In this document: positions 9,140-64,000 of the stretch, piece after piece
Numbering within the stretch: position 1 is the first letter of the stretch
Layout of the letters: every line of letters starts with the position of its first letter
Origin: Pseudomonadota bacterium
Lineage (GTDB): Bacteria > Pseudomonadota > Alphaproteobacteria > Rhodobacterales > Rhodobacteraceae
NCBI GenBank assembly: GCA_020161615.1
Contig: JAIUPD010000005.1
Coordinates: 62,001-126,000 of the forward strand
Length of the DNA stretch: 64,000 bases
Reading direction: 5' to 3'
Translations under genes and position numbers: made by a program
The notes under the pieces: model-generated
Database searches by the model: none
Told to the model about the DNA's origin: nothing
The model's input: only the letters and a program-made list of their open reading frames with translations

Positions 9140-9262
9140 GCGGTTCCAAGGGGCGGCATATAGGAGCGGCCCTCGGGGGCATCGAGCCCCTCGGGCCGCT
9201 CAGGGGGCGCTGCCCCCTGCGGCCTGCGGCCTACCCCCGGGATATTTGCAGAACGAAGATCT
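9140..9262 (+). repeat. intergenic hairpin element, copy 1 (with core)
   Basis: This fills the gap between the convergent ends of uvrA and the oxidoreductase gene. It holds a long hairpin, GAGCGGCCC ... GGGCCGCTC around a GCATCGA loop, then GGGGGC-GCT-GCCCCC, and ends with a diverged copy of the family core (CCGGGATATTTGCAG, then AACGAAGATC) at about 9236-9262. The loop piece GGGGGCATCGAGCCCC is shared with copy 4 at 33.8 kb. Confidence 0.6.
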
Positions 9263-11243
9263 AGAGGCTTCGGGCGATCTTGCGGCCATCATGGAAGGCG
9301 AAGGGGGCGAGGCGCGGGGCGGCGGCATCGCCGAGGAGCACCGGCGCCAGATCGGCGAGGTCTTCGGAGAGCGGGTAGAAGGCGCGGTTGGTGGTGGCCA
9401 TGACCAGCGCCGAGGCGGGGATTGTCTGTTCCTCTCCGGTCAGGAGCGAACGGATCCGCGCGCCCGCCCCGTTCCCCAGCCATTCGGCGATGGCGCTTTC
9501 GGTCAGGAAGGTGACGCCGCGCCGGGCCAGCGCCGTGCGGGCCGGACCATCGGCGGCGGTGCGGGCGAGGTCGCGGGCCACCATCGCGTCCGGGGTGACC
9601 AACGTCACCCGATGCCCGGCCTCGGCCAGGTGCCAGGCGGTGCCGATGCCCTTCCAGTGTCCGCCCTCGTCGTAAAGGATCACCTCGGTCCCCAGCCGTG
9701 CCTCGCGCCGCATCACCGCCTCGGCGCTCCAGACCGCGCCGCGCTCGACCCCCGGCAGGCTGTCATGCTGCGGCAGCCAGCGCTGGAAACCCGCGTCATC
9801 GGGCAAGGAGCCGGTGGCGAGAAGCAGGCGGTCGGGGTTGATCGCGCGGATGGCCGCGTCGTCCAGAAAAGTGTTGAGGCGCAGGTCGACGCCCAGCCGG
9901 GTCAGCTCGCGTTCGTACCAATCCAGCAGGTCGAGGATCTGCGCCCGCCGCGGCTGTTGCCCGGCCAGCCGGAACTGCCCGCCGATCTGCGGCTGGGCCT
10001 CGGCCAGCACCACGCGGTGGCCGCGGATCGCGGCGACGCGCGCGGCCTCGAGCCCCGCGGGACCCGCGCCGACCACCAGCACGTCCAGCGGTACCTCGGC
10101 GGGGGTGAAGCGGTCGCCGCCCCATTCCCATTCGCGGCCGGCCGAGGGATTGACCACGCAGGAAATCCAGTAATCGCGGGACCGCCGCCCCCAGCACATC
10201 TGGTTGCAGCTGAGGCAGGGCCGCACCCGATCCGCCTGCCCCGCCGCGGTCTTGGCCGCCAGATGCGGGTCGGCGATCTGGCCCCGAACGATGCTGACCA
10301 GATCGGCGGCGCCCGAGGCGATGACCTGTTCGCCGGTATCGGGAGTGCGAATCCCGGCCTCGGCGGTGATCTTCGCATGCCGGACCACCCCTTTCAGCAG
10401 CGCCGTGACCGGCACGGTCAGCGTGTCGGGCTCGGTGAAGGGCGGGATGATGCGGGCGAAATCGAGGTAGGACCCGGCGCCGCAGGTGACGTAATCGACA
10501 TGGCCGGTGGCATCGTGCAGCGCCACGATCTCGCAGAGCGCCTCGGCCTGCAGGGACACCGAATATTGCGCGTCATTGCTGATGGCGAGGCCGAGGATGA
10601 AATCCTCGCCACAGGTGCGGCGCACGCCCTCGATCAGTTCCCGCGAGAACCGGGTGCGGTTTTCCAGCGAGCCGCCCCAGCAATCCCCGCGCCGGTTCGA
10701 CCAGGGCAGCCAGAATTGGTCGATCAGGGAATTGTAGGCGGCCCAGACCTCCACCCCTTGAAACCCCGCCTGCTGCGCGCGGCGTGCGGCGGCGATATGG
10801 GCGGCGAGCAATTCCTCGATCTCGACCCCCGACATCGCATGCGAGCCATCCGCGTCGTGGTACGAGGGGCGGCCGGACGGCGACCAATGCGGCTGGAAAC
10901 TCAGGTCGGAATCGCCATGCCCGCCGATGTGATAGATCTGCTGGATGATCACCGCGCCCTCGGCCCGCACCGCCTCGGTCACTTTGCGGAAGGCGGGGAT
11001 GATGCTGTCATCCTCGTGCCGGTAATTCCCCCGGGTCAGGACGCCGGTGCGGTGGGCCGGCACCGGCTCGCACACCACCATCCCCGCGCCCCCCAGCGCG
11101 CGTTCGCGCAGATAGGCCAGGGTACGGGCGCCGGGCAGGCCGTCTTCCGCCATGTTGTTGGTATGCGCGCCGAAAACGATGCGATTGCGGAGTGTCTCGC
11201 CGCGCAGCTGCAGGGGCGACATCAGGCGGGGATGGTTGGTCAT
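9261..11243 (-). CDS. FMN/4Fe-4S/FAD oxidoreductase of the trimethylamine dehydrogenase / 2,4-dienoyl-CoA reductase family
   Basis: 660 residues. The N-terminal half is an old-yellow-enzyme barrel (MSPLQLRGETLRNRIVFGAH; later GGSLENRTRFSREL). Four cysteines in the family spacing C-x2-C-x3-C-x11-C (C343, C346, C350, C362) would hold a 4Fe-4S cluster. The C-terminal half starts with an FAD/NAD Rossmann motif, VLVVGAGPAGLEAAR (near residue 390). Relatives oxidise methylated amines or reduce enoyl-CoAs; the exact substrate here is not clear. The start at 11243 has a good GGAGG site and removes a non-conserved 79-codon extension. It is divergent from a dienelactone hydrolase, so the two may share a catabolic role. 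Confidence 0.85.
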   Translation of the reverse strand: MTNHPRLMSPLQLRGETLRNRIVFGAHTNNMAEDGLPGARTLAYLRERALGGAGMVVCEPVPAHRTGVLTRGNYRHEDDSIIPAFRKVTEAVRAEGAVIIQQIYHIGGHGDSDLSFQPHWSPSGRPSYHDADGSHAMSGVEIEELLAAHIAAARRAQQAGFQGVEVWAAYNSLIDQFWLPWSNRRGDCWGGSLENRTRFSRELIEGVRRTCGEDFILGLAISNDAQYSVSLQAEALCEIVALHDATGHVDYVTCGAGSYLDFARIIPPFTEPDTLTVPVTALLKGVVRHAKITAEAGIRTPDTGEQVIASGAADLVSIVRGQIADPHLAAKTAAGQADRVRPCLSCNQMCWGRRSRDYWISCVVNPSAGREWEWGGDRFTPAEVPLDVLVVGAGPAGLEAARVAAIRGHRVVLAEAQPQIGGQFRLAGQQPRRAQILDLLDWYERELTRLGVDLRLNTFLDDAAIRAINPDRLLLATGSLPDDAGFQRWLPQHDSLPGVERGAVWSAEAVMRREARLGTEVILYDEGGHWKGIGTAWHLAEAGHRVTLVTPDAMVARDLARTAADGPARTALARRGVTFLTESAIAEWLGNGAGARIRSLLTGEEQTIPASALVMATTNRAFYPLSEDLADLAPVLLGDAAAPRLAPFAFHDGRKIARSL

Positions 11244-11382
11244 CGGAACCTCCGGGCTGCGGTCAGGATGCGGGCGGCGGGCCGGTGTTTCGCGACCGGG
11301 GCCGTCACGCCGGAGGCCAAATGCGACCTTGACGCGCCCGGCGGGCCTGCCAAGTTGCGGCACAACCACAGGGAGGAACAGG

Positions 11383-12099
11383 ATGATCCAACGCGAAACG
11401 CTCGAATGGACCGATGGCACGATTTCGATGCGCGGCACGCTGTTGCGCGACGACGACCTGCAGGGTCCCGCGCCCGGCATCCTGATCGCCCCCGCCTATG
11501 CCGGGACCGGCCCGGTCGAGGAAGAGCGGGCCGAATTTCTGGCGCGGGCGGGCTATGTCGTGTTGCTTGGCGACTATTATGGCGAGGGCAAGCGCGCGGC
11601 GGATGCCGAGGAGGCGACGGCGCTGATGTTCGGGGTCGAGGGCCAGCGGCCGGTTCTGGCCAAACGCATGACGGCGGCGCTGGCGGCTTTGGCGGCGCAG
11701 GATTGCGTGGATGAAACGCGGCTCGGCGCCATGGGCTATTGCTATGGCGGCAAGGCGGTGCTGGATCTGGCGCGCAGCGGCGCCGATCTGGCCGTGGCGG
11801 GATCGCTGCACGGGGTGCTCGACCCGCCGCCGCAGCCGACGCAGGCCATCAAGGCCTCGGTTCTGGTGATGCATGGCTGGGACGATCCGCTGGCCAAGCC
11901 CGAAGCGGTCGTCGCTCTGGCGCAGGAACTGACCGCGGCGGGGGCCGAATGGCAGCTTCTGGGCTTCGGGCAGACCGGGCATTCCTTCACCAACCCTCGC
12001 GCCAACAGCCCCGAAAGCGGCATGGCCCATAGCGCGGCAGCGACGCAGCGGGCCTATGCGGCGCTGGACCGGCTGTTTGCCGAAAAGTTGGGGCGCTGA
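11383..12099 (+). CDS. dienelactone hydrolase family protein
   Basis: 238 residues with the alpha/beta-hydrolase fold. The nucleophile elbow is GYCYGG with Cys120 in place of Ser, as in true dienelactone hydrolases. The acid is in HGWDDPLAKPE and the histidine in GQTGHSFTNPRA, completing a Cys-Asp-His triad. Family members hydrolyse cyclic enol-lactones in chlorocatechol breakdown, but many paralogues act on other esters, so the substrate is open. The start follows GGGAGG at a 6-nt distance; a longer in-frame extension exists but has no ribosome site. It is divergent from the FMN/FeS oxidoreductase across 139 bp. Confidence 0.88.
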   Translation: MIQRETLEWTDGTISMRGTLLRDDDLQGPAPGILIAPAYAGTGPVEEERAEFLARAGYVVLLGDYYGEGKRAADAEEATALMFGVEGQRPVLAKRMTAALAALAAQDCVDETRLGAMGYCYGGKAVLDLARSGADLAVAGSLHGVLDPPPQPTQAIKASVLVMHGWDDPLAKPEAVVALAQELTAAGAEWQLLGFGQTGHSFTNPRANSPESGMAHSAAATQRAYAALDRLFAEKLGR

Positions 12100-12131
12100 C
12101 CCCTCTCGGGGCGACCGTCGCCAAACAGAAA

Positions 12132-12160
12132 CGGGCCCGTCACCATCGCGACGGGCCCGC
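12132..12160 (-). terminator. rho-independent terminator of gcdH
   Basis: A perfect 10-bp stem, CGGGCCCGTC / GACGGGCCCG, with an 8-nt loop. On the minus strand the stem is followed by GTTTCTGTTT, so it is placed and oriented to end the gcdH transcript. It also lies behind the dienelactone hydrolase on the plus strand, where no T-run follows. Confidence 0.75.
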
Positions 12161-12186
12161 AGTCGTTGCCTTGCAGCGGTGAGGCC

Positions 12187-13407
12187 TCAGAAGAAGGCCT
12201 GCAGCCCGGTCTGCGCCCGGCCGAGGATCAGCGCATGAACGTCATGCGTGCCCTCGTAGGTGTTGACCGTCTCCAGGTTCACCATGTGGCGAATGACCTG
12301 GAATTCCTCGGAAATCCCGTTGCCGCCATGCATGTCGCGGGCCACGCGGGCGATATCCAGCGCCTTGCCGCAATTGTTGCGCTTGATGAGCGAGATCATC
12401 TCGGGCGCGCCCTGCGCCTCGTCCATCAGGCGACCGACCTGCAGCGCCGCTTGCAGGCCCAGCGTGATCTCGGTCTGCATGTCGGCCAGTTTCTTCTGGA
12501 ACAGCTGCGTGCCGGCCAGCGGCTTGTCGAATTGCTTGCGGTCAAGGCCGTATTGGCGCGCGGCGTGCCAGCAGAACTCGGCCGCCCCCATCACGCCCCA
12601 GGCGATGCCATAGCGCGCCCGGTTGAGGCAGCCGAACGGACCCTTCAGCCCCTCGACATAGGGCAGCAGCGCGTCTTCGCCGACTTCCACGTTGTCCATG
12701 ACGATCTCGCCAGTGGTCGAGGCGCGCAAGCTGAGCTTGCCCTCGATCTTCGGCGCGCTGAGGCCCTTCATGCCCTTGTCCAGCACGAAGCCGCGGATGC
12801 GCCCGCCATGGGCTTCCGACTTCGCCCATACGACGAAGACATCGGCGAAGGGCGCGTTCGAGATCCACATCTTGGTGCCGGTCAGCTTGTAGCCGGTGGC
12901 GGTCTTCTCGGCGCGGGTCTTCATGCCCGCGGGGTCGGACCCCGCGTCGGGTTCGGTCAGCCCGAAGCAGCCGATCAGGTCGCCCGAGGCCAGACCCGGC
13001 AGGTATTTCTGCCGCTGCTCTTCCGAGCCATAGGCATAGATCGGGTACATCACCAGCGAAGATTGCACCGACATCATCGAGCGATAGCCGGAATCGACCC
13101 GCTCGATTTCCCGCGCCACCAGACCATAGGTCACGTAGCCTGCGCCAAGGCCGCCGTATTCCTCGGGGATCGTGGTGCCCAGAAGCCCGGCCTCACCCAT
13201 CAGCTTGAAGACGCCCGGGTCCGAAGTCTCATCGCGGAAGGCCTGGATCACGCGCGGTTGCAGCACCGATTGCGCGAATTCCTTGGCCGCGTCGCGCAGC
13301 ATGCGCTCATCCTCGGTCAGTTGGCCATCCAGCCGCAGCGGGTCATCCCACTGGAAACGGCCGAGGTCCGGGGCGTCCTTGGCTTTCAGTTTGGGGCGGT
13401 CGGTCAT
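12187..13407 (-). CDS. gcdH: glutaryl-CoA dehydrogenase
   Basis: 406 residues of the acyl-CoA dehydrogenase fold. The FAD/substrate signature is [13 protein letters not shown] near residue 150 and [18 protein letters not shown] near 190. The catalytic base sits in [16 protein letters not shown] near residue 382, the glutaryl-CoA dehydrogenase position. The enzyme oxidises and decarboxylates glutaryl-CoA to crotonyl-CoA in lysine/tryptophan and glutarate breakdown. The N-terminus [19 protein letters not shown] is typical of GcdH. It is divergent from a LysR regulator (87 bp apart), a common GcdH arrangement, so that protein is the likely regulator. Confidence 0.93.
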
Positions 13408-13460
13408 GCGGGATCCTCCTGTGCTGGCGGCGAAATACCATGCGACAGCGGGGCAAAAAA

Positions 13461-13472
13461 CCGATAAATCGG
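13461..13472. promoter_or_regulatory. palindrome between gcdH and the LysR gene
   Basis: CCGATAAATCGG, a perfect inverted repeat with 5-bp arms and a 2-bp centre, lies in the 87-bp divergent region, 23 bp before the LysR start and 54 bp before the gcdH start. LysR proteins normally bind dyad sites in this position. No longer T-N11-A box was obvious around it. Confidence 0.4.
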
Positions 13473-13494
13473 CATGAAGCCATGAGGGTTTGTA

Positions 13495-14376
13495 ATGATA
13501 CCGCGCCGCCTTCTGCCCAATACCCCCGCGCTGCTGGCCTTTGACGCCGTGGCCCGGACCGGCAGCTTCACCGCCGCCGCCCGCGATCTGGGCCAGACGC
13601 AGGGGGCGATTTCGCGGCAGGTGGCGCAGTTGGAGGGGCAGTTGGGGGTGCCGCTGGTGGACCGCGGCGCAAGGGCCGCCCGGCTGACGCAGGCGGGTAC
13701 GGCCTATGCCCGCGCCGTCAAGGCGGCGCTCGATGCGCTGGGGCGCGGCGCGATGGAGGCTTTGGGCCAGACGCAGGAGCGCGGGCTGCAACTGGCGATC
13801 CTGCCCACGTTCGGGACCCGCTGGCTGATGCCGCGCATTCCCCGCTTCGTCCGCCGCCACCCCGAGATCACGCTGCATTTCACCACCCGCATCGGCCGTT
13901 TCGATCTGGGCGCCGAGGGGATCGACGCCGCCATCCACTCGGGCCGCGGCGATTGGCCGGGCGCGCGGCTGACGCTGCTGATGGAGGAACGCGTGATGCC
14001 GGTCGCCGCCCCCGGCACCAAGGGCGTCGCGGGCCAGCCGCTGCTGGCGCTGGCGACCCGGCCGCAGGCCTGGGCCGACTGGTGGGCGCTCTCTGCCCTG
14101 CCCGGCCCGCTGCCCGCGCCGGCGATGCGGCTGGAACAGGTCTCGACGCTGGCGCAGGCCGCCGCCGCCGGGATGGGCGTGGCGCTGATGCCGGCCTTCC
14201 TCATCCGGCCTGAACTCGATTCCGGCGCGCTGGTGCCCTTGGGCCCCGAGACCGCCACCGGCTTCGGCTATTGGTTCGCCGAGCCGGACCTCGCCCCCGG
14301 GGAACGGGCGAAACCCTCGGTCGCGCGGTTCAAGGATTGGCTGATCACCGAGATCGACCGCGAGACCGTGGTCTAG
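13495..14376 (+). CDS. LysR-family transcriptional regulator
   Basis: 293 residues. The winged helix-turn-helix occupies residues 1-65: [35 protein letters not shown] and LTQAGTAYA are the classic LysR pattern, closest in style to GcvA-like members. The rest is the periplasmic-binding-like effector domain (from about residue 90, [18 protein letters not shown]). It lies divergent from gcdH, which suggests it controls gcdH, probably in response to glutarate or glutaryl-CoA; this is inference from position. Its stop is 1 bp from the stop of the convergent MFS gene. Confidence 0.92.
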
Positions 14377-14377
14377 C

Positions 14378-15526: not shown

Positions 15527-15724
15527 AACCTCCGGCACGGGCAGCGCCGCATCCGATCACGGGCGCGGGTGAAGGTCCAGCGGAAGCGCCGCCGTTGCCT
15601 CCCCTTGCCGAACCCCGGACGATTCCCCCTTTCCTTCACGCCGCCCTTGGGCTATGGCCAGCCGCGCTGCGCATCCACCCTTGGAGGGGCGTGGCCGATA
15701 GCAACCAATTTCAGGAGAACCGAT

Positions 15725-16342: not shown

Positions 16343-16364
16343 TCGCCCCTTCCGCCCGATCTGG

Positions 16365-16395: not shown

Positions 16396-16414
16396 GTTGC
16401 GCGCCGACCATCGG

Positions 16415-19533: not shown

Positions 19534-19758
19534 GAGGTTTCGCCCTCGTTGCCCGCTGACGCGGGCACCGCGGGCGACCAGCTGCGCGGCAAAGCCGCGC
19601 CGGAGAAAGGGGGCCGTCGCCCCCCCCCCCTCTTGGCCTTCGGCTTGGTCCGGCCCTACGCTCGCGCTCGGGGCGTTCGGGCTTGACGACGCGCACTGGC
19701 GCCTCGTCCGTGCGGCCCTCGCCCCAGAGGATATTTGGAGAACAAAGATGAAGGTTTA
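19534..19758 (+). repeat. intergenic hairpin element, copy 2a (leader and core)
   Basis: It starts 2 nt after the hemF stop with GGTTTCGCCCTCGTTGCCCG, continues through GGGCGACCAGC and several GC-rich inverted repeats, a run of 11 C residues (19620-19630) and CGCTCGCGCTCGGGGCGTTC, and ends with the core AGAGGATATTTGGAG then AACAAAGATGAAGG (19725-19758). The stretch 19634-19705 is clearly homologous to 63558-63625. No gene is seen in this 350-bp gap. Confidence 0.75.
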
Positions 19759-19775
19759 AGGGGGCGTTAACCTGC

Positions 19776-19866
19776 CTTCTTTGCGCTTCAAATATTCTCG
19801 GGGGTTTCTCAAGGGGGTGGAAAACCCCCTTGAGCGGGGGGTGCGGGGGGCTGGCCCCCCGCCACT
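19776..19866 (-). repeat. intergenic hairpin element, copy 2b (inverted core and hairpins)
   Basis: A second core in opposite orientation (CCTTCTTTGCGCTTCAAATA then TTCTCGGGG, 19775-19804), followed by the hairpin CTCAAGGGGGT-GGAAA-ACCCCCTTGAG (19808-19834) and GGGGGGCTGGCCCCCC. Cores 2a and 2b are head to head, 17 bp apart, so they can pair with each other. The same head-to-head arrangement recurs at 38.1-38.2 kb. It lies behind the sensor kinase gene, whose stop is at 19884 on the minus strand. Confidence 0.75.
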
Positions 19867-19883
19867 TCCCGGCCATCCCCGCC

Positions 19884-26899: not shown

Positions 26900-27044
26900 G
26901 ACGAGCTGGGGGGAGGCGGGGGGCTGCCGCCCCCAGGGAACGCGAAAAGCGGGGGGCTGCCGCCCCCCGCACCCCCTGCTTCAAGCAGGGTTTTCCACCC
27001 TCCTTGAAAATCCTCCCGAGGATAGTTGACGCGCAAAGATGAGG
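26900..27044 (+). repeat. intergenic hairpin element, copy 3
   Basis: It contains two GCGGGGGGCTGCCGCCCCC hairpins, then TTCAAG-C-AGGGT-TTTCC-ACCCT-C-CTTGAA (26980-27008), then the core CCCGAGGATAGTTGAC and GCGCAAAGATGAGG (27013-27044). Copy 8 (52.75 kb) matches it over about 90 bp in opposite orientation. The core ends 4 bp before the aat start, so its GATGAGG also supplies the aat ribosome-binding site. Confidence 0.75.
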
Positions 27045-33816: not shown

Positions 33817-33946
33817 CGGGAGGACGGGCGCCGGGGGGCATCGAGCCCCCCGACGCCCGGTGGGTTGCCACCCGCCCCCACCCGGGGGAGGGTTTTCCAC
33901 CCTCCCCGGACCCCTCCCGGAGGATATTTTCAGAGCAAAGATGAAA
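33817..33946 (+). repeat. intergenic hairpin element, copy 4
   Basis: It starts at the ggt stop. In order: CGGGCG-CGGGGGGCATCGAGCCCCCCG-CGCCCG hairpin (loop piece shared with copy 1), GGTGGG...CCCACC, GGGGAGGGT-TTTCC-ACCCTCCCC (33885-33907) and the core CCGGAGGATATTTTCAG then AGCAAAGATGAAAG (33915-33946). It lies between the convergent ends of ggt and edd. Confidence 0.72.
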
Positions 33947-38005: not shown

Positions 38006-38165
38006 CGGGAGGGGTTTCGCCCTCGTTGCCCGCCGCCGCGGGCGCCTCGGGCGACCAGCGGCGCCGCGTTCCGCGGCGCCGAAACAGAAAGGGGGGCCTT
38101 CTGCCCCCCTCTTGGCCTGAAGGCCAATTCACCCCCCGAGGATATTTGGAGCGCAAAGATTCAGG
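38006..38165 (+). repeat. intergenic hairpin element, copy 5a (leader and core)
   Basis: It begins right after the PIN stop: GGAGGGGTTTCGCCCTCG, GGGCGACCAGC, hairpins GGCGCCGCG-TTC-CGCGGCGCC and GGGGGGCC-TTCT-GCCCCCC, GGCCTGAAGGCC, then the core CCCCCCGAGGATATTTGGAG and GCGCAAAGATTCAGG (38132-38165). This is the best-preserved leader-plus-core copy. No gene is seen in the 348-bp gap. Confidence 0.8.
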
Positions 38166-38185
38166 TTAAGGGGGCGCTAAGCCGC

Positions 38186-38262
38186 CTTCTTTGCGCTTCA
38201 AATATCCTCGGGGGTATCCAAAGGGGGTGGAAAACCCCCTTTGGCGGGGGGCGCGGGGGTGA
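38186..38262 (-). repeat. intergenic hairpin element, copy 5b (inverted core and hairpins)
   Basis: The inverted core CTTCTTTGCGCTTCAAATAT then CCTCGGGGG is followed by CCAAAGGGGGT-GGAAA-ACCCCCTTTGG (38218-38244) and GGCGGGGGGCGCGGGGG. It is head to head with 5a, as in copy 2. It lies behind metK, whose stop is at 38354 on the minus strand. Confidence 0.8.
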
Positions 38263-38353
38263 GCGGCGTCTCGGAAACGCGCCAGTGGCGCGTTTCAGCC
38301 GCGAACGCCGCGCCCGTGGCGCGGCCGGACCTGGCCCCCGCCTCCGGCAGCCC

Positions 38354-39527: not shown

Positions 39528-39571
39528 TGCTCCATTGCATGTCGCCCGTCACGCCAGGAAGCCGTTGTGAC
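39528..39571 (-). ncRNA. SAM/SAH riboswitch in the metK leader
   Basis: Read on the minus strand the leader shows P1 GTCAC / GTGAC around AACGGCTTCCTGGC, then a 12-nt joining stretch and ATGGAGCA. Order, spacing and the AACGGCTTCCTGGC loop match the known SAM/SAH class (RF01727) that precedes metK in Rhodobacterales. The 3' segment ATGGAGCA contains the metK ribosome-binding site and can form the pseudoknot, so bound SAM or SAH should block translation. The ATG is 7 nt after the motif. Confidence 0.93.
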
Positions 39572-39583
39572 AGGAGTATGATG

Positions 39584-43931: not shown

Positions 43932-45266
43932 TCAGAGTACCCGCCCCGCCAGCGAATTGGGCGCCGAGCCGGTGATCCGCACCCGGATCAGCTCGCCGGG
44001 CGTCGCCGCGCAATCCGCGACATGCACCGCATGCAGATGGTCGGACTTGCCCACCATCTGCCCCGGCAGCCGGCCCGGTTTCTCGATCAGAACCCCCACC
44101 TCGCGCCCGACCATCGCCTCCTGCGCCGCGCGCTGCTGCTCGGCGATCAGCGCTTGCAGCCGGTGCAGCCGCGCATCCAGCACCGCGTCGGGCAGGACCG
44201 GACGCTCGGCGGCGGGCGTGCCCGGGCGGGCCGAATATTTGAAGGTGAAGGCCGAATGATACCGGACCGCCCGGACCAGCGCGAGCGTCTCCTCGAAGTC
44301 GGCCTCGGTCTCGCCCGGGAAGCCGACGATGAAATCCCCCGAGAGCGCCAGATCCGGCCGCACCCCCCTGAGCCGCTCGATCAGCCGCAGGTAATCCTCG
44401 GCCCGATGCTTGCGGTTCATCGCCTTCAGCACCTTGTCCGAGCCCGATTGCACCGGCAGATGCAGATAGGGCATCAGCTTCTCGACCTCACCATGCGCGG
44501 CGATCAGGTCATCCGACATGTCATTGGGATGGCTGGTGGTATAGCGGATGCGCCACAACCCCTCGATCCCCGCCAGCTCCCGCACCAGCCGCGCCAGCGA
44601 CCAGACCGTGCCGTCCGGCCCCAAACCATGATAGCCGTTGACGTTCTGGCCCAGCAGCGTGATCTCCCGCACCCCGCGCTCGACCAGATCCCGCGCCTCG
44701 CGCAGCAGGCGCTCGGCCGGGCGGCTGACCTCGGCCCCCCTGGTATAGGGCACGACGCAGAAGGCGCAGAACTTGTCGCATCCCTCCTGCACCGTCAGGA
44801 AGGCGGTCGGCCCGCGCGAGGCCCGCGGCCCTTTCGGCAGCCGCTCGAACTTGTCTTCCTCGGGAAAATCGGTGTCCACCGGCCGCGCGCCGGCCCGCGC
44901 CGCCGCCTCCATCTCGGGCAGCCGGTGATAGGTCTGCGGCCCGACCACCAGATCGACCACCGGCGCCCGGCGCAGGATCTCCTCGCCCTCGGCCTGGGCG
45001 ACGCAGCCGGCGATGCCGATCTTCAACTCGGGATTGGCCTCCTTCAAGGGCCGTAACCGCCCCAGTTCGGAATAGACCTTCTCGGCCGCCTTCTCGCGGA
45101 TATGGCAGGTGTTGAGCAGGATCATGTCGGCGTCTTCCGCCCGATCCGTGGTCACATAGCCATTGGCGCCCATGGCCTCGGCCATGCGCTCGCTGTCATA
45201 GACATTCATCTGACAGCCATAGGTCTTGATGAACAGCTTCTTCGGCGCGGAAACGGAGGCGGTCAT
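43932..45266 (-). CDS. miaB: tRNA-2-methylthio-N6-dimethylallyladenosine synthase
   Basis: 444 residues. The N-terminal MTTase domain carries three cluster cysteines ([40 protein letters not shown]). The radical SAM motif is [15 protein letters not shown] near residue 165. A C-terminal TRAM domain ([20 protein letters not shown]) completes it. It adds the methylthio group to i6A37 of tRNAs reading UNN codons. It is the first gene of the miaB-phoH-ybeY-corC-lnt run. Confidence 0.97.
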
Positions 45267-45337: not shown

Positions 45338-45464
45338 CCATCTTTGCGCTGCAAATATCCACGGGGTTTCCAAAGGGGGGCGTGCCCCCCTTTGGCGAGG
45401 GGGCGCGGGGGGCGAGCAGCCCCCCGCCTTGGTCGCCCGAAGGCGCAGCCGAGGGCGAAACCCC
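45338..45464 (-). repeat. intergenic hairpin element, copy 6 (complete: leader, hairpins, core)
   Basis: Read on the minus strand it begins at the fabA stop with GGGGTTTCGCCCTCGG and GGGCGACCA, continues with GCGGGGGGC-TGCTC-GCCCCCCGC and the perfect 12-bp stem CCAAAGGGGGGC / GCCCCCCTTTGG (45370-45395), and ends with the core GTGGATATTTGCAG then CGCAAAGATGGGG. It is the one copy that has both the leader and the hairpin/core parts. Confidence 0.8.
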
Positions 45465-52742: not shown

Positions 52743-52835
52743 CCCCATCTTTGCGCTTCAAATATCCACGGGGATTTTCAAGGGGGGCGTGCCCCCCTTG
52801 AAGCAGGGGGTGCGGGGGGCGGCAGCCCCCCGCCT
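52743..52835 (-). repeat. intergenic hairpin element, copy 8
   Basis: Read on the minus strand: GGCGGGGGGC-TGCC-GCCCCCCGC, CACCCCCTGC, the stem CAAGGGGGGC / GCCCCCCTTG (52780-52801) and the core GTGGATATTTGAAG then CGCAAAGATGGGG (52746-52774). It matches copy 3 (26.9 kb) over about 90 bp. It lies between the ends of mbfA (+) and potI (-). Confidence 0.8.
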
Positions 52836-53639
52836 CTACCCGGTCCGCTTCGACTGCCGCATCAGCAGCAGCCCGGCGATGGTCACCGCCACCGCGACGA
52901 TGACGATGATGATCGTGGCCAAAGCGTTCACGTCGGGGCTCACCCCCAGCCGCACCTTCGAGAAGATGACCATCGGCAGGGTCGAGGCCCCGGGGCCCGA
53001 GACGAAGCTGGCGATCACCAGATCGTCCAGCGACAGCGTGAAGGCCAGCAGCCAGCCCGAGACCAGCGCGGGCGCGATCACCGGCAGGGTGATGTCGAAG
53101 AACACCCTGACCGGCCCCGCGCCCAGATCGCGCGCGGCCTCTTCCAGGCTTTCGTCCATGTCGCGCAGCCGCGACTGGGCGATGACCGCGACATAGGCCG
53201 AGGTAAAGGTCGCATGGGCGATCACCACCGTGGTCAGCCCTCGTCCGGCGGGCCAGCCCAGAGCCAGCTCCATCGCCACGAACAGCAGCAGCAGCGACAG
53301 GCCGATGATCACCTCGGGCATGACCAGCGGCGCGGTCACCATGCCGGTCAGCAGCAATTTCCCTCGGAACTTGCCGAACCGCGTGAGCACGAAGGCGGCG
53401 AGCGTGCCGATCACCGTGGCGATGGTCGCGGCCAGCACGCCGACCTTGAGGCTGATCCAGGCCGCGGCCAGCATCTGCCCGTCGGCCAGCAACTCGCCAT
53501 ACCAGCGGGTCGAGAAACCGCCCCAGACCGTCACCAGCCGGCTCTCGTTGAACGAGAAGATGATCAGCGACGCGATGGGCGCGTAGAGGAAGCAGAAGCC
53601 CAGCGTGGCGACGATGGGCAGGAACCAGCCGCGTCTCAT
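52836..53639 (-). CDS. potI: putrescine ABC transporter permease PotI
   Basis: 267 residues, six membrane helices. The permease EAA loop is DESLEEAARDLGAGPVRVFFDITLP, near residue 175. The protein closely matches PotI/PotC of the polyamine importers (FSFNESRLVTVWGGFSTRWY at the start; FTLSLDDLVIASFVSGPGAS near the end). It forms the channel with PotH. Its start overlaps the potH stop by 4 nt. It is the last gene of potFGHI. Confidence 0.95.
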   Translation of the reverse strand: MRRGWFLPIVATLGFCFLYAPIASLIIFSFNESRLVTVWGGFSTRWYGELLADGQMLAAAWISLKVGVLAATIATVIGTLAAFVLTRFGKFRGKLLLTGMVTAPLVMPEVIIGLSLLLLFVAMELALGWPAGRGLTTVVIAHATFTSAYVAVIAQSRLRDMDESLEEAARDLGAGPVRVFFDITLPVIAPALVSGWLLAFTLSLDDLVIASFVSGPGASTLPMVIFSKVRLGVSPDVNALATIIIVIVAVAVTIAGLLLMRQSKRTG

Positions 53640-55896: not shown

Positions 55897-55902
55897 AAGG
55901 GC

Positions 55903-56994: not shown

Positions 56995-57109
56995 GCGCTT
57001 TCACTCTCCGTTGGGCCCCTTCCGGGGGTCGTTTGGCTGGACTCTGAAGGTCCTTGACCAAAACTCTGCGAAAATATGATCAAGACCTCAAGCAAGGATT
57101 TTGCAACAC

Positions 57110-57140
57110 GCGGGGGCCTGGTGCGAACAGCTGCCCCCGC
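57110..57140 (-). terminator. hairpin behind the SAF-domain gene
   Basis: GCGGGGGC and GCCCCCGC form an 8-bp stem with a 15-nt loop in the gap between the SAF-domain oxidoreductase and potF, followed on the minus strand by GTGTTGCAAAATCC. The T-run is weak, so it is only a probable terminator. Confidence 0.4.
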
Positions 57141-57162
57141 CGAGAGCGAAAGTGCCCAAAGC

Positions 57163-58473: not shown

Positions 58474-58490
58474 GCAGGGCTCCTCTCGGC

Positions 58491-59678
58491 CTAGGGACGC
58501 AGCAGGATCAGGGCAACCAGGCTCAGGATCGCGGGCAGGGCAAAGACCATGCCCGGCAGGTCGATCACCGCGCCCGAGCCGGTGAAGGCAGCGAAGACCT
58601 GGGTATAGACGAAGGGCGCGGCGATCATCCCCATGGCGTGCAGCGAGGCCAGCGCGCCCTGCAATTCGCCCTGCTGGCTGGCCTCGACCCGGTCCGACAT
58701 CTCGGCCCTGAGCGCAGGGTTGATCAGCCCCGACAGCGACGAGATCGGGATCAGCACCAGCGCCAGCATGCCGCTTTCCACCACCGTGAGAAAGGCGAAG
58801 GACACCAGCGCTGCCGCGGATCCTAGGATCATGGCGCCGCCGCGGCCCAGCCAGCGGATCGCGCCGCGCATCAGCACCCCCTGCACCAGCACCATCCCCA
58901 GCCCGTAATAGGCCAGCGACAGCCCGACCTGCCCCGCGCTCCAGCCAAAGCGCGCTGTGGCGAAATAGGCCCAGATGACGGGATAGACGGTGAAGGCGAA
59001 TTCGAAGGCGAAATAGACGGTCAGAAAGCGCCCCAGCCCCGGCAGGCGGCCGATATTCTTGAAGGCGCCAAAGGGGTTGGCCCGCCGCCAGTCGAAGGCG
59101 CGGCGGTTCTCGGGCTTGAGCGATTCGCGCATGACGACAAGCCCGAAGAGCAGGTTCAGCGCGGCGACGCCCGCAGCAGCGAGGAAGGGCGCGCGGGTGC
59201 CGTATTCGCCCAGCATCCCGCCGACGGCCGGGCCCAGGATGAAGCCCGCGCCAAAGGCCGCGCCGATCAGACCGAAGCGCTGCGCCTTCTGTTGCGGGGT
59301 CGAGATATCGGCGATATAGGCGCTGGCGGTGCCATAGGTGGCCGAGGTCACGCCATTGACCAGCCGCGCCAGAAAGATCAGCCAGATGCTGCCCGCCAGC
59401 GCCAGCACCAGGTAATCCGCGGCCAGCATGCCCAGGGACAGCAGCAGCACCAGCTTCCTCCCGTAGCGGTCCGAGAGGTTGCCGATCACCGGGCCGAAGA
59501 GGAATTGCATGACCGCGAAACCGCCGGTCAGCAGCCCGCCCCAAAGCGCGGCATGCGACAGATCCTCGCCCGTGACCTCGCGGATCAGGTCGGGCATGAC
59601 GGGCATGATCAGCCCATAGCCGATGGCATCGAGCATCAGCGTGATCAGGATGAAGACGACGGGCAGCGATTGGCGCAT
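58491..59678 (-). CDS. MFS transporter, TetA-like (DHA1)
   Basis: 395 residues, twelve helices. GNLSDRYGRKLVLLLSLGML is the inter-helix loop between TM2 and TM3, and YIADISTPQQKAQRFGLIGA, GFILGPAVGGML is motif C of drug/H+ antiporters. It closely resembles TetA-type exporters, but this does not prove drug efflux. The start at 59678 is ATG. It lies 32 bp after pcaD and 17 bp before the SAF oxidoreductase, so the three may be one transcript. Confidence 0.87.
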   Translation of the reverse strand: MRQSLPVVFILITLMLDAIGYGLIMPVMPDLIREVTGEDLSHAALWGGLLTGGFAVMQFLFGPVIGNLSDRYGRKLVLLLSLGMLAADYLVLALAGSIWLIFLARLVNGVTSATYGTASAYIADISTPQQKAQRFGLIGAAFGAGFILGPAVGGMLGEYGTRAPFLAAAGVAALNLLFGLVVMRESLKPENRRAFDWRRANPFGAFKNIGRLPGLGRFLTVYFAFEFAFTVYPVIWAYFATARFGWSAGQVGLSLAYYGLGMVLVQGVLMRGAIRWLGRGGAMILGSAAALVSFAFLTVVESGMLALVLIPISSLSGLINPALRAEMSDRVEASQQGELQGALASLHAMGMIAAPFVYTQVFAAFTGSGAVIDLPGMVFALPAILSLVALILLRP

Positions 59679-59710
59679 GGGTCAGCCGGCTTGGGGGTGT
59701 CGGGGCGGGC

Positions 59711-60505
59711 TCAGGCCGCCAGATGCCCGGTTTCGTGGATAAAGGCGGTCAGCGCCTCGGCATAGTCGGCCGGTTTGTCGACGCAGGGCAGATGGCCCGC
59801 GCCCCGGATCAGATGGAAGCGAGAGCCCGGCACCAGATCGGCGGTTTCGCGCACCAGATCGGGCGGGGTCGAGCCATCCTCGCTGCCAGCGATGGCCAGG
59901 ACCGGCAGCCTGAGGCCGCTGGTCGGCGTGTAGAAATCGGTGCCCGCGATGGCATGGGCGCAGCCGACATAGCCGTTGACCGGCGTGCGGGTGACCATGT
60001 GACGCCAGGCGCGCGCCTCGTCCGACTGGCGAAAGGGCTTGGGAAACCAACGCTCCAGCGTGGCGTCGGCGATGGCCTCCAGCCCCTTCTCCTCGATCAG
60101 GGCGATGCGCTGGCGCCAGATCTCGGCCGTGCCGATCTTGGAGGCGGTGTTGGACAGGACCAGCCCCCGCACCAGATCCAGCCGCTTGACCGCCAGCCCC
60201 TGCGCCACCAGCCCGCCGATGGAAAGCCCCACGACCAAAGCCTCGCGCATGCCGACATGCTCCATCAGCCGCTCGGCATCGCGCACCAGCGTCCCCATCG
60301 GATAGGGCGGGTTCGGCGCGTCGGACAACCCATGCCCCCGCAGCGAATAGCGCAGCACCCGCAGGCCCCGGGGCAGCAGCGGCAGGATCTTGTCCCAGAG
60401 CCTCAGGTCGGTCCCCAGCGCATGAATCAGCAGCAGGGGCGGCCCCTCGGGATCGCCATGCAGCTGGTAGTTCAGGCGCACATCGCCCAGATCGGCCATC
60501 AGCAT
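59711..60505 (-). CDS. pcaD: 3-oxoadipate enol-lactonase
   Basis: 264 residues, alpha/beta-hydrolase fold. The nucleophile is Ser95 in VVGLSIGGLVAQGLAVK; the acid lies in LAIAGSEDGSTPPDL and the histidine in IRGAGHLPCVDKPADY, a full triad. LNYQLHGDPEGPPLLLIHAL and ALGTDLRLWD match PcaD. It opens 3-oxoadipate enol-lactone in the protocatechuate branch of the beta-ketoadipate pathway. The start has GGGAGG at 7 nt. No other pca genes are adjacent, so the function is by similarity only. Confidence 0.82.
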   Translation of the reverse strand: MLMADLGDVRLNYQLHGDPEGPPLLLIHALGTDLRLWDKILPLLPRGLRVLRYSLRGHGLSDAPNPPYPMGTLVRDAERLMEHVGMREALVVGLSIGGLVAQGLAVKRLDLVRGLVLSNTASKIGTAEIWRQRIALIEEKGLEAIADATLERWFPKPFRQSDEARAWRHMVTRTPVNGYVGCAHAIAGTDFYTPTSGLRLPVLAIAGSEDGSTPPDLVRETADLVPGSRFHLIRGAGHLPCVDKPADYAEALTAFIHETGHLAA

Positions 60506-60612
60506 GGGCCACCCTCCCCTGTTCCGGGCTCAATGTCGCACTTTTCGCGCCCGCGGCAAGCGGCCTTGAAACTCGGGGGCAGAGTTGCGATCTGAGACGC
60601 CGGAGGTACCTG

Positions 60613-61188
60613 ATGACTGATGCCAATCCGGTGATGGATTTTCTCCTCACCCGCCGCTCGAAACCCGCCGCCGCGCTGACCGCCCCCGCCCCCGAGGGCG
60701 CCGCGCTGGACCAGCTGCTGACCGCCGCTGCCCGCGTGCCCGATCACGGCGCGCTGGTGCCCTGGCGCTTTCTGGTGATCGAGGGGCCGGCCCGCCATCG
60801 CCTCGCCGGTCTGGTGCGCGAACGAGGCCCCGTCCTGGGCGTCGATGCCGCGAAGGTCGAAAAATCGGCGTCGCTGTGGGAAAAATCGCCGCTGGTCGTG
60901 GCGGTAATCGCCTCGCCCGTGCCCTCGGAAAAGGCGCCCGAGCTGGAACAGATCCTCTCGGCCGGCGCGGTCTGCGCGGCGCTGGTGAACGCGGCGCTGG
61001 CCTCGGGCTGGGGCGCCGCCTGGATCACCGGCTGGGCCGCCTTCGACCGCGATTTCATGAGCCGCGGCCTGAACCTTGCCCCGCAGGAACAGGTGGCGGG
61101 CTTCGTCCATCTGGGCAGCTGCGACACCGCCGTCGGCGACCGCCCGCGCCCGGACCTCTCGGCCATCGTCACGCGGGTGTCGGCATGA
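60613..61188 (+). CDS. nitroreductase family protein (YdjA-like)
   Basis: 191 residues, a compact FMN-binding nitroreductase. It has the early RRS motif (FLLTRRSKPAAALTAPAP), AARVPDHGALVPWRFLVIEG, and GAVCAALVNAALASGWGAAWITG. It probably reduces small electrophiles using NAD(P)H and FMN as a dimer; natural substrates in this subgroup are unknown. The start has GGAGG 7 nt before it. It is divergent from pcaD across 107 bp. Its stop overlaps the start of the EI24 gene by 4 nt (ATGA). Confidence 0.9.
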   Translation: MTDANPVMDFLLTRRSKPAAALTAPAPEGAALDQLLTAAARVPDHGALVPWRFLVIEGPARHRLAGLVRERGPVLGVDAAKVEKSASLWEKSPLVVAVIASPVPSEKAPELEQILSAGAVCAALVNAALASGWGAAWITGWAAFDRDFMSRGLNLAPQEQVAGFVHLGSCDTAVGDRPRPDLSAIVTRVSA

Positions 61189-61874
61189 TCCTGGGGGCGA
61201 TCTTCGCCGCGCTGGGCCAGTTCGGCGACCCGCGGTTCCGCCGGGTCGTCTGGCTGGGGCTCGGCCTGTCGGTGGCGCTGCTCTTCGCGCTCTACTGGCT
61301 CTTGGTGCTGGTCATCCAGTTGCTGGTGCCCGACAGCGTGGGCCTGCCCTGGATCGGCCCGGTCGGCGGCCTCGACACGGCGCTGACCCTGGCCTCGATC
61401 CCGGTCATGCTGCTGCTCAGCGTCTTCCTGATGGTGCCGGTCGCCTCGGCCTTCAGCGGCTTCTTCCTTGACGAGGTGGCCGATGCCGTCGAGGCCGAGC
61501 ATTACCCCCAGCTGCCCCCGGCCGACAGGGCGGGCTTCTGGGACTCGCTCAAGGACGCGCTGCGCTACACCGGGCTCTTCATCCTGCTGAACCTGATCGG
61601 GCTGATCATCGTGATCTTCACCGCGGGTCTGGGCTTCGTCGTGTTCTGGGCGATCAACGGCTATCTGCTGGCGCAGGAATATTTCACCACGGTGGCCCTG
61701 CGCCGCATGGGCCCGGCCGAGGCCGCGCGGATGCGCAGCGCCAATATGGGAACGCTCTGGATCGCGGGGGTACTGTTCGCCATCCCGCTCAGCGTGCCGG
61801 TGCTGAACCTCTTCGTGCCGGTGTTCGGCGTGGCGGCCTTCACCCACCTCTTCCACCGCATCGCGATGCGGTGA
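61185..61874 (+). CDS. EI24-domain membrane protein (CysZ-like)
   Basis: 229 residues. Hydrophobic segments at about 23-46, 65-90, 125-150 and 185-212, and the pattern FSGFFLDEVADAVEAEHYPQL and GYLLAQEYFTTVALRRMGP, match the EI24/CysZ family. CysZ transports sulfate in E. coli, but many EI24 proteins have no known role. It starts inside the nitroreductase stop codon. It is convergent with the DUF1467 gene, with a shared terminator region. Confidence 0.85.
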   Translation: MILGAIFAALGQFGDPRFRRVVWLGLGLSVALLFALYWLLVLVIQLLVPDSVGLPWIGPVGGLDTALTLASIPVMLLLSVFLMVPVASAFSGFFLDEVADAVEAEHYPQLPPADRAGFWDSLKDALRYTGLFILLNLIGLIIVIFTAGLGFVVFWAINGYLLAQEYFTTVALRRMGPAEAARMRSANMGTLWIAGVLFAIPLSVPVLNLFVPVFGVAAFTHLFHRIAMR

Positions 61875-61899
61875 AAAAGGGCGCCCTTATGGGGCGCCC
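61874..61899 (-). terminator. terminator of the mce-DUF1467 operon
   Basis: A 7-bp stem, GGGCGCC / GGCGCCC, with a 7-nt loop is followed on the minus strand by TTTTTCACC. It overlaps the last codons of the DUF1467 gene (stop at 61887) and lies at the end of the EI24 gene. Confidence 0.75.
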
Positions 61900-62165
61900 A
61901 TCCAGCGGTGCAGGACGTCCACGTCCTCGATCGTTATCCAGCCCGAGACGATGATCCCCACCACCACGGCCCAGATCAGCGTCCCGGCGATGGTCGTAAC
62001 CAGCATCTTGCGGCCGATCCTGGGGTCATGCGGCGCCGATTCCGGGGTGCCCGCGACGATCCGGCCCGCCTCGCCCTGCGTGGTCAGCCTGAGCGGCAGG
62101 ACAACCAGCAAGGTCAGGAACCAGATGAAGGCGTAGAGGACGAAAGCGGAAAAAAGCGGGATCAT
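61887..62165 (-). CDS. DUF1467 family protein
   Basis: 92 residues. Two membrane helices (about 3-25, FSAFVLYAFIWFLTLLVVLP, and 55-75, LVTTIAGTLIWAVVVGIIVS) flank a loop with RLTTQGEAGRIVAGTPESAP and DPRIGRKML, the DUF1467 pattern. Its start overlaps the mce stop by one nt (TGATG). The family accompanies mce in many Alphaproteobacteria; its role is unknown. Confidence 0.9.
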   Translation of the reverse strand: MIPLFSAFVLYAFIWFLTLLVVLPLRLTTQGEAGRIVAGTPESAPHDPRIGRKMLVTTIAGTLIWAVVVGIIVSGWITIEDVDVLHRWMGAP

Positions 62166-62569
62166 CAGACCTGCTCCAGCTCGATCAGGCAGCCGTTGAA
62201 ATCCTTGGGATGCAGGAAGAGCACGGGCTTGCCATGGGCGCCGATCTTCGGCTCGCCACTGCCCAGCACCCGCGCGCCCTCGGCCTTCAGCTTGTCACGG
62301 GCGGCAAGGATATCGTCCACTTCGAAACACATGTGGTGAATGCCGCCCGAGGGGTTCTTGTCCAGGAAACCCCGGATCGGGCTGTTTTCGCCCAGGGGAT
62401 AGAGGAGTTCGACCTTGGTGTTCGGCAGGGTGATGAAGACCACGGTCACGCCATGGTCGGGCTCGTCCTGCGGCGGGCCGACCTCGGCCCCCAGCGTCAT
62501 GCGGTACTGGGCCGCGGCGGCCTCGAGGTCCGGCACGGCGATGGCGACATGGTTCAGGCGTCCGATCAT
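62165..62569 (-). CDS. mce: methylmalonyl-CoA epimerase
   Basis: 134 residues with a double glyoxalase-type fold. LNHVAIAVPDLEAAAAQYRM carries the first metal His; GGIHHMCFEVDDI the second; LIELEQV the last acidic ligand. It interconverts (2S)- and (2R)-methylmalonyl-CoA in propionyl-CoA use. This fits an acyl-CoA-using lifestyle (ScfR regulator, AccBC). It is divergent from the receiver gene across 128 bp. Confidence 0.95.
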   Translation of the reverse strand: MIGRLNHVAIAVPDLEAAAAQYRMTLGAEVGPPQDEPDHGVTVVFITLPNTKVELLYPLGENSPIRGFLDKNPSGGIHHMCFEVDDILAARDKLKAEGARVLGSGEPKIGAHGKPVLFLHPKDFNGCLIELEQV

Positions 62570-62697
62570 GATCTCTTCCTCTGCAGGTTCGGTGCCTGAA
62601 TATAGGCCGGGGCGCGGAAAGCAAGCGACGCGAGGCCGCAGCTTAACCCCGCATGAACCATTCGCCGCCAGGATGGGCCGGTCAACCGGAGGTGCCC

Positions 62698-63414
62698 ATG
62701 CCCAACGCGCCCTATGCGGCAGACCAGCCGCGCCCCCTGCCCGACCGTGCCGCCGTCGTGGCCTTCGCCATGCCGCCCCGCACCCTGCTGCTGGTCGAGG
62801 ACAGCCGCCTCGCCGCCGAGGCGGTGCGCCTGATCTGCCGCCGCGCCGGGATCCGCCTCAGGCGCGCCGAGTCGCTGGCCTCGGCGACGCTGCATCTGCG
62901 GGTCTACCGGCCGGATATCGTGCTGGTCGACCTCGGCCTGCCGGACGGATCGGGCCTCGACCTGATCGCCGCGCTCGCCCCCTCGACCCTGCGGCCCCAG
63001 CGGCTGGTGGCGATCAGCGGCGACGCGGGGCTGGAGGGGGCGGCGATGGCGGCCGGCGCCGATGCCTTCCTCGCCAAACCGGTCAGCATCGCGCGCCATC
63101 TGGCGGTCCTGATCGGCGAGCCGGTCGGGGACGGGCTGCCCGACTGGCCGGTCCGGCTCGACGCGATGCGCGACCGCGGCGCGGGCGGCGACCCGATGGC
63201 GCTGCGCGACGACCTGCGCCGCGCGACCGACCTGCTGAACGGGCGCGGGGATTCGTCGCAACATCGCTACGCCGCCCAATTCCTCGCCTCGGTCGGCCAG
63301 ACCCTGCGCGACCCCTCGCTCACCGACCTCGCCGAACGCGCCGCGCGGATGGGCGATTACGGCAGCCTCGCCGCCCTGGTGCGCGCCCGCGCCGCGGTGA
63401 TCCCGACGATCTGA
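62698..63414 (+). CDS. response regulator receiver protein with C-terminal helical domain
   Basis: 238 residues. Receiver domain at residues about 28-142: RTLLLVEDSRLAAEAVRLIC, phospho-acceptor Asp78 in DIVLVDLGLPDGSGLDL, Ser108 in VAISGD and Lys127 in FLAKP. Residues about 143-238 form a helical tail (DRGAGGDPMALRDDLRRATD, QHRYAAQFLASVGQTLRD) without a recognisable DNA-binding or enzymatic domain. The start at 62698 has GGAGG 5 nt before it; an ATG at 62653 would add 15 residues. No kinase gene is adjacent, so the partner is unknown. Confidence 0.88.
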   Translation: MPNAPYAADQPRPLPDRAAVVAFAMPPRTLLLVEDSRLAAEAVRLICRRAGIRLRRAESLASATLHLRVYRPDIVLVDLGLPDGSGLDLIAALAPSTLRPQRLVAISGDAGLEGAAMAAGADAFLAKPVSIARHLAVLIGEPVGDGLPDWPVRLDAMRDRGAGGDPMALRDDLRRATDLLNGRGDSSQHRYAAQFLASVGQTLRDPSLTDLAERAARMGDYGSLAALVRARAAVIPTI

Positions 63415-64000
63415 GGGGGGATGCGGCGGCCCGGCCGCTGCCACCTCCTCCCTGCCCTTCGCGGCAGCAGACGAGGTGAGGAGCCCCCCGGAGCCGGAGG
63501 TGTTTCGCCCTCGGCCGCACCGCGCCGAGGAAGGGCGCGGGCCTTCTGGTCCCCTCCCGGCCTGAAGGTCCGGCCCCGCGCTCGCGCGCCGGGCGTTCGG
63601 GCCTGACAAGGCATCCCTGGCGCCCCCTCCGGGCGACTCCGATCCCTGTTAGCCATACAAAGAACGACGATGACGAAGGCCCGGGTCCGACCGGGCGACA
63701 CGCCGGTCTTATCACTTTGCCAAAAATACGCCGGGGGGTCCGGGGGGGCCGCCCCCCTGGGGCCGCAACCAGCGCCGACCCCTCCGCGGCGGGAGGCACG
63801 CGGGGAGGGCGGGTGGGAGCGTGCCTCCCGCCGCTTCGCGCAGGCAAGGGCAGCGGGGTCCCTCGGTCAGGCCTCCGCTTCCTGCTCCGAGCCGCCCCGG
63901 CGACCGGTTCGCCGTCCCAGGGAACCAGATGCCTTGCGGCCATGACCCCCCCCCCGAGTCGCACGAGCCTTGGAGATTTCCGTCGATGAAAGAAACCGGG
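63415..64000. repeat. 586-bp gene-free region with degenerate copies 9a/9b of the hairpin element
   Basis: No gene is supported. From 63495 a leader-like GTGTTTCGCCCTCGG begins, and 63558-63625 (CGGCCCCGCGCTCGCGCG, GGGCGTTCGGGCCTGACAAG, CTGGCGCC) matches copy 2a at 19634-19705. At 63714-63740 CTTTGCCAAAAATACG then CCGGGGGG looks like a degenerate inverted core, followed by GGGGGGCC-GCCCCCC. A run of 10 C residues lies at 63946-63955. The rest is GC-rich and without clear signals; the edge of the window cuts it. Confidence 0.55.

Follow-up and report, generated by a model that had tools for sequence, protein, structure and literature searches.

Elements of the window and their copy number

The window, which is the whole stretch of 64,000 nucleotides analysed here from contig JAIUPD010000005.1 of a Pararhodobacter genome (G000; 4.87 Mb in 26 contigs), holds ten copies of an intergenic element built around a 27-nt core, and these elements are one lineage's version of a Rhodobacteraceae family that lies in gaps at the 3' ends of genes. 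Each element consists, in order, of stem-loops, CCCC-GGA(G)-TATTT, a variable 3-nt spacer and a word of about 11 nt ending in GAAR, and two copies are often arranged as an inverted pair with a distance of about 45 nt. The left box is common to the whole family and the word is specific to the lineage, with one to three words per genome. Nine sites belong to subfamily A (9.24+, 19.73+, 19.79-, 27.02+, 33.92+, 38.14+, 38.20-, 45.35- and 52.76- kb) and the tenth (63.73- kb) to subfamily B. The cores and the modules beside them are listed below, with minimum free energies (MFE) of folding for the first three modules.

9238..9264, plus strand: core copy 1, subfamily A (pattern match)
9163..9242, plus strand: stem-loop module upstream of copy 1 (fold, MFE -53.0)
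19727..19753, plus strand: core copy 2, left member of the inverted pair 2/3 (pattern match)
19652..19731, plus strand: stem-loop region upstream of copy 2 (fold, MFE -38.6)
19773..19799, minus strand: core copy 3, right member of the inverted pair 2/3, offset 46 (pattern match)
19754..19772, no strand: centre of the copy 2/3 inverted pair, GTTTAAGGGGGCGTTAACC (sequence)
19795..19874, minus strand: stem-loop module of copy 3, TTTTCCA loop (fold, MFE -47.6)
27018..27044, plus strand: core copy 4, between same-strand genes, its end 4 nt before the next called start
26943..27022, plus strand: stem-loop module of copy 4
33920..33946, plus strand: core copy 5, in a convergent gap
33845..33924, plus strand: stem-loop module of copy 5
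38138..38164, plus strand: core copy 6, left member of the inverted pair 6/7
38063..38142, plus strand: two-hairpin module of copy 6
38183..38209, minus strand: core copy 7, right member of the inverted pair 6/7, offset 45
38205..38284, minus strand: stem-loop module of copy 7, TTTTCCA loop
45336..45362, minus strand: core copy 8, GTGG variant, with a same-strand gene on either side
45358..45437, minus strand: stem-loop module of copy 8, CAC loop
52743..52769, minus strand: core copy 9, GTGG variant, directly next to the stop called for the convergent gene
52765..52844, minus strand: stem-loop module of copy 9
63707..63733, minus strand: core copy 10, of subfamily B (63712-63732 match the pattern)
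63729..63808, minus strand: stem-loop module of copy 10

All ten sites listed in the original prediction exist, and their core is far above chance. The core string as spelled there had no exact match, but the joined consensus GAGGATATTTG-NNGNN-CAAAGATGAAG matched the window nine times at up to six mismatches, compared with no match in 29 of 30 Markov-resampled windows and one match in the remaining one. The reversed pattern at the same threshold gave no match in 864 kb that include the window. The half-cores taken alone were weakly above chance (12 versus 5.8 expected and 13 versus 6.2 expected). Across the genome, a pattern allowing two mismatches found 191 copies, and a subfamily B pattern, GGCGTATTTN{3,5}GCARARTGA (GGCGTATTTNNNGCARARTGA-like), found 35 more; the reversed control gave 0 in both cases. 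By count this sets a genome minimum of 226 copies, and the site at 63.73 kb, which had been described as degenerate, is a regular member of the second subfamily. Several hundred copies per genome had been anticipated, in agreement with the at least 226 counted and the roughly 380 extrapolated from two 400-kb stretches together. The proposed spacing of about one copy per 7 kb holds in the window (10 in 64 kb) but not in those stretches, which have 29 copies each; the window is about twice as dense, and copy density is roughly 50-80 per Mb.

Genes were predicted with our own caller, without curated annotation. All ten window copies, on both strands, are intergenic by these calls, as are 52 of the 53 copies over the 864 kb. 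The core is neither as scarce as base composition would make it nor mainly inside genes. The hairpins beside the cores are also alike between copies, as had been noticed: the 45.35 and 52.76 kb copies agree at 85 of 96 alignment columns, and the third and eighth (19.79 and 45.35 kb) are identical at 72 of 99.

No Rfam family reaches its gathering threshold at the elements, the best score being 24.8 bits against a threshold of 63 at 38.0-38.4 kb. The sole Rfam match in the window is a SAM/SAH riboswitch aptamer (57 bits, 39528-39576, minus strand). Two short plasmid matches had no annotated feature beneath either of them, and a phage origin was set aside with one exact match in viral contigs. 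The titles, abstract openings and passages within reach, including those of PMC7866481 and PMC11497788, hold no description of the element; subscription papers and ISfinder lay outside that reach. The earlier remark that no named family fits agrees with these searches, and the elements appear to be a widespread and apparently unnamed family of Rhodobacteraceae repeats.

Anatomy, lineage words and placement at gene ends

Patterns and profiles were used instead of a covariance model because the stem-loops are not one family. Over five genomes, the left box carries 1.4-1.9 bits per position, the spacer (+5 to +7) 0-1.0 and the word (+8 to +18) mostly 0.6-1.9; beyond about +19 the information is mostly below 0.6 bits, with single columns of up to 1.2 in small sets. 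The profile searches imposed GG..TATTT and AWGAAR (CCAAGAAGT for genome G018) in four of these genomes and the consensus at up to seven mismatches in our own, so that spacing, spacer variety and the remainder of the word were left free in the four others. The core of the Pararhodobacter dialect is a weak inverted repeat, whereas the cores of other dialects are not.

The structured side of the element is the upstream one: MFE over 75 nt is lower upstream than downstream of the core in 119 of 142 copies (61/68, 14/19, 23/31, 10/12 and 11/12 by genome). Among the stems with a TTTTCCA loop (11 distinct, from 23 copies), pairs 1, 4, 6, 7 and 8 vary on both sides and are paired in all; two other loops examined for pairing were out of register and uninformative. 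Mosaic modules of 60-125 bp recur at high identity within genomes, and in 12 of 15 inverted pairs the two copies stand at an offset of 44-46 nt. Triplex formation (a mirror repeat) between a stem arm and the C-rich linker was considered and dropped, since, with informative arms that are symmetric and a linker that moves together with its module, the pairing modes are indistinguishable. The centres of inverted pairs (window 19727-19799 and others) read GGTTAAGGGGGCGTTAACC-like, fitting TTAA-N7-TTAA, which we take to be the CtrA-site pattern. Four of the six TTAA-N7-TTAA sites in the 864 kb adjoin a core, too few to judge, and CtrA sites at the pair centres were not retained as a candidate.

The pattern of the Pararhodobacter dialect matched 9 of 17 same-genus relatives, one of 18 other genomes of the family and, as single matches, 2 of 24 genomes of the class; P. 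aggregans alone has 237 matches, and P. aggregans, P. marinus and P. oceanensis are among the species with motif-bearing loci in the matches listed. With one genome per genus, the looser patterns GGAGTATTTN{4,11}AWGAAR and GGATATTTN{4,12}AWGAAR matched 80 and 111 of 149 Rhodobacteraceae genomes, many of which have few matches, close to the reversed control (0-3). By hand tally, at least ten matches were found in 45 and 43 genomes by the two patterns and in 74 of 149 with either, so that about half of the sampled genera of this large and well-studied family seem to have such elements. In a class-wide set of 142 genomes, nearly all from other families, the first pattern matched 24 and none more than three times, which is the control level.

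Among the matches listed, the word that follows the spacer differs from genome to genome: AACAGAAGAAG in G183, ACCCAAAGAAG in G133, GAATAATGAAR together with GCCCAAAGAAG in G169, while in G027 CCACRATGAAA, CAACGAAGAAG and AACAGAAGAAG coexist. In G169, which is of another genus, inverted-pair units of about 125 bp (locus L218, about 14152-14277 and 5060-5180) occur at about 80-92% identity in tens of places. The prevailing pair at +9/+10 also differs by species, being CG in our genome (35/52), AA in P. aggregans (43/61), AG in CCB-MM2 (10/13) and AC in Oceaniglobus (7/7). Such dialects recall a self-recognition sequence of the uptake type, as in Neisseriaceae, used for transformation or by recipients of gene transfer agents. 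Both orientations, inverted pairs near gene ends, and occurrence in one family with no class-wide excess of the one pattern tried would all suit it. An uptake sequence should have a single dialect per species and a high copy number; some of these genomes have two or three words, and 50-80 copies per Mb is far from thousands per genome, which leaves this explanation very unlikely.

Placement relative to genes is strongly skewed. Over the 864 kb, 30 of the 52 intergenic copies lie in convergent gaps, which make up 66 of the 439 gaps of at least 50 nt (p about 2e-12), and only 2 lie in divergent gaps, which make up 125 of the 439 (p about 6e-6). Among 73 single copies from our genome and related loci, 36 were convergent, 25 same-strand sense, 12 same-strand antisense and none divergent; among 74 copies in pairs, 41 were convergent, 15 sense, 13 antisense, 4 divergent and one inside a gene. 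These tallies leave out nine loci with non-Rhodobacteraceae titles, and some of the related loci are orthologues of our own. The GAAR end lies within 40 nt of a neighbouring called gene in 44 of the 73 single copies. At 44889 and 388768 of contig C1 in our genome, minus strand, the ATG in the core's CAAAGATG is the start of the downstream gene as called. Same-strand singles, taken with all copies from stretches of four other genera that were picked around known matches, gave 42 sense to 25 antisense (p 0.05), and a looser pattern in our genome gave 14 sense, 14 antisense and 5 divergent. Any bias in orientation to transcription is weak at most.

Elements at gene 3' ends, with stem-loops on the TATTT side, stems that have changed on both sides and a slight sense bias, could be unusual intrinsic terminators or shields against read-through, in which the stem-loop and TATTTNNN bring transcripts to an end while RNA polymerase pausing is adjusted by the word that lies downstream. 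TATTTNNN is 8 nt long, about where intrinsic terminators release RNA. Ordinary terminators are slightly rarer in same-strand gaps with a sense core (2/33 versus 43/439 without). At convergent ends, however, T-run terminators are not rarer beside a sense core (13/74, compared with 28/176 with no core and 11/38 with antisense cores only), 25 of the 67 same-strand copies are antisense, and a terminator needs no lineage-specific word past the release point. A terminator role for the stem-loop part is plausible, although the exclusion test lent it no support; as an account of the whole element this explanation is rather unlikely. The AU-rich TATTT following a protective stem-loop might also be a site at which RNase E trims mRNA 3' ends, and that enzyme in R. 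sphaeroides prefers AU according to the passages available from PMC6238624. Such a site needs neither a word nor antisense copies, and we give this idea the least weight of all. The conserved word past the U-rich box and the mixed orientation argue against a module acting purely at the RNA level.

Spacer and module differences between two Pararhodobacter species

Our genome and that of P. aggregans share 441 reciprocal best genes, of which 400 were used. Their four-fold p-distance is 0.198, with 0.298 for the 95th-percentile gene, and aligned intergenic sequence differs by 0.11 over 232 gaps. There are 32 orthologous cores; in 27 of them both species carry the subfamily A word, and five are switched or unclear. 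Over the 27 pairs, spacer positions +5 to +7 differ in 39 of 81 comparisons, +9/+10 in 25 of 54 and +8 in 0 of 27; box 1 differs in 10 of 243 and box 2 in 2 of 162, the pairs having been picked for the subfamily A word in both species, a choice that favours box 2. The flanks differ in 449 of 1620, many of these differences being module swaps or indel shifts. In the nine clean pairs, with both flanks at least 80% alike, the counts are 14/27 for the spacer, 8/18 for +9/+10, 0/9 for +8, 2/81 and 0/54 for boxes 1 and 2 (2/135 together) and 34/540 for the flanks. The spacer has changed more than four-fold sites have (p 9.5e-9 over the 27 pairs, 2e-4 over the nine clean ones), and 39/81 also exceeds the 95th-percentile gene (p 4e-4). 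An earlier ungapped comparison of 21 orthologous pairs, some of them mispaired between subfamilies, gave the same picture. The spacer therefore seems to change unusually fast.

Several of these loci look as exchange would leave them. At C1:372143-372163 one species has a subfamily B core and the other a subfamily A core while both flanks align, which is a replacement in place. Stem-loop modules swap between orthologous copies, and among the 27 pairs the right flank alone was kept in five and the left alone in five. At +9/+10, our genome has CG where P. aggregans has AA at 12 loci, the reverse at none, and AC against AA once. Within our genome, 3 of 37 pairs of copies with a common module have the same spacer, as do 156 of 2111 unrelated pairs. 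In the portion of PMC5217627 available, motif pairs with similar spacers were discarded as duplications, and the same logic was applied here.

The original prediction had likened the elements to REP (repetitive extragenic palindromic) sequences or to MITEs (miniature inverted-repeat transposable elements). The REP-like position, copy number, stem-loops, mosaic structure and inverted pairs stand, but not spread driven by a REP-associated transposase (RAYT) or spread in the manner of a MITE. The suggested RAYT gene did not appear: Y1_Tnp had no match in our genome or in P. aggregans (G010), for all its 237 copies, and was found at all in 2 of 24 genomes of the family, so that a RAYT-driven REP was rejected. 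The orthologous gaps led to the rejection of a plain MITE, since of the 12 in which at least one species has a core none was a clean empty site: eight had the same pattern, two showed decay, one held another subfamily and one a pair against a single copy (a thirteenth, a gap of 1 nt, was discounted). The one presence/absence difference, elsewhere, is a P. aggregans pair missing in our genome and bounded by a short repeat, for which deletion or insertion both fit. That pair, the gap with different subfamilies, the high-identity modules and the fixed spacing of inverted pairs could still reflect a non-autonomous mobile family of REP/BIME (bacterial interspersed mosaic element) or MITE type, spread by a transposase not recognised in our analysis. 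With spacers in our genome not inherited with the module, and only two genes flanked by cores on both sides in the 864 kb (neither transposase-like by eye, without a family search), we regard this as unlikely.

Recent copying, taken by itself, leaves unexplained why the spacers vary while the boxes on either side are fixed, and independent point mutation does not easily explain the many parallel dinucleotide differences or the in-place core swap; recognition of both boxes together with exchange between copies would explain spacers and core swap alike. Our preferred explanation, held tentatively and at somewhat less than even chances, is that a hypothetical lineage-specific factor reads the bipartite core, while exchange between copies homogenises them and terminator-like stem-loops stand alongside. 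The core would be a putative recognition site, most likely in DNA, for a factor whose specificity drifts between lineages, and the copies of a genome may be kept alike by gene conversion or recombination between them, the breakpoints falling inside the core or next to it. Through such exchange stem-loop modules would move between copies, cores would be substituted at their sites and the spacer would turn over. A probable further role of the stem-loops is to assist transcript ending or to stop read-through into the following gene, and the element would be tolerated at gene ends for that reason. Bipartite conservation in five genomes, the lineage words, the fast spacer and the in-place replacement are consistent with this proposal. 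Perhaps, in a transposase-free counterpart of REP and RAYT, a co-evolving factor reads the constant and the drifting half of a DNA site common to the family and cuts or recombines at the 3-nt spacer, so that modules are exchanged among hundreds of elements at gene ends and the dialect switches together while copies stay put; this variant seems to us rather improbable.

Several observations weigh against the preferred explanation, whose factor is so far hypothetical. The flanks used as a yardstick are partly constrained by hairpins and coding ends, four-fold sites of a GC-rich genome may understate neutral change, and the comparison is of one species pair, the genus of G169 having a single genome. 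The 12-to-0 direction at +9/+10 is not independent evidence because it largely follows the different prevailing pairs of the two species. The spacer is itself constrained in our genome (+5 is G in 51/68, +7 is A or G in 58/68) and its positions hold 0.8-1.0 bits in G018. In P. aggregans, 19 of 54 module-sharing pairs also share the spacer, which makes the separation of module and spacer weaker there. As for the 11 TTTTCCA stems, pair 9 forms in only 6 and pair 10 in only 9, pair 5 fails once, and these stems are module families, hence their changes are not independent events.

Should a factor read the core, the words of the different lineages are a handle for finding that factor and for following how the dialect of a genome-wide recognition site changes between sister species. 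If the elements end or shield transcripts, terminator prediction in Rhodobacteraceae overlooks a class of gene ends.

Comparison with known systems

Rhizobial RIME and ABC elements are mosaic intergenic palindromes of Alphaproteobacteria, and to our knowledge they have no lineage-variable core. The architecture of dif recombination sites was also compared; arm and spacer length are similar in the Pararhodobacter dialect only, and the idea was dropped. Our genome contains a second dispersed palindrome family that is REP-like, with GTAGGGTGGGATTTCATCCCACC and GTAG-head variants and no Y1_Tnp match in the genome, and in addition a convergent gap (C3 203606-204144) with several CCTCCTCCCTGGG-like units between palindromic sequences. 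The GTAGGGTGGGATTTCATCCCACC palindromes lie at the following positions.

C1 55765-55930, 63286-63361 and 115807-116144: GTAGGGTGGGATTTCATCCCACC palindrome family
C3 143259-143435 and 314515-314647: GTAGGGTGGGATTTCATCCCACC palindrome family

Intrinsic terminators share with the element the position at gene 3' ends, the GC stem-loop and a U-rich box. The element differs in that its U box is merely TATTT, a weak U tract, that a conserved word follows, and that the orientation is often antisense.

A REP unit is an imperfect palindrome with a conserved head tetranucleotide, and no such palindrome is the repeat unit here; the conserved part is a linear bipartite core beside a hairpin whose stem sequence varies. 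More than 100 extragenic copies, inverted pairs in regular alternation, stem-loops, mosaic structure and species specificity are common to our elements and to REP/BIME sequences with RAYT, as far as the available part of PMC2817692 describes them. The differences extend to the missing RAYT or Y1 transposase and to module copies that, in our genome, carry unrelated spacers.

The DNA uptake dialects of Neisseriaceae likewise belong to one family and are conserved within species, according to the accessible part of PMC3630211, and uptake sequences of H. influenzae often pair up in terminators in the corresponding part of PMC5217627. Our element has far fewer copies than the Neisseriaceae dialects, and is set apart from them by long stem-loop modules, several words and a fast spacer.

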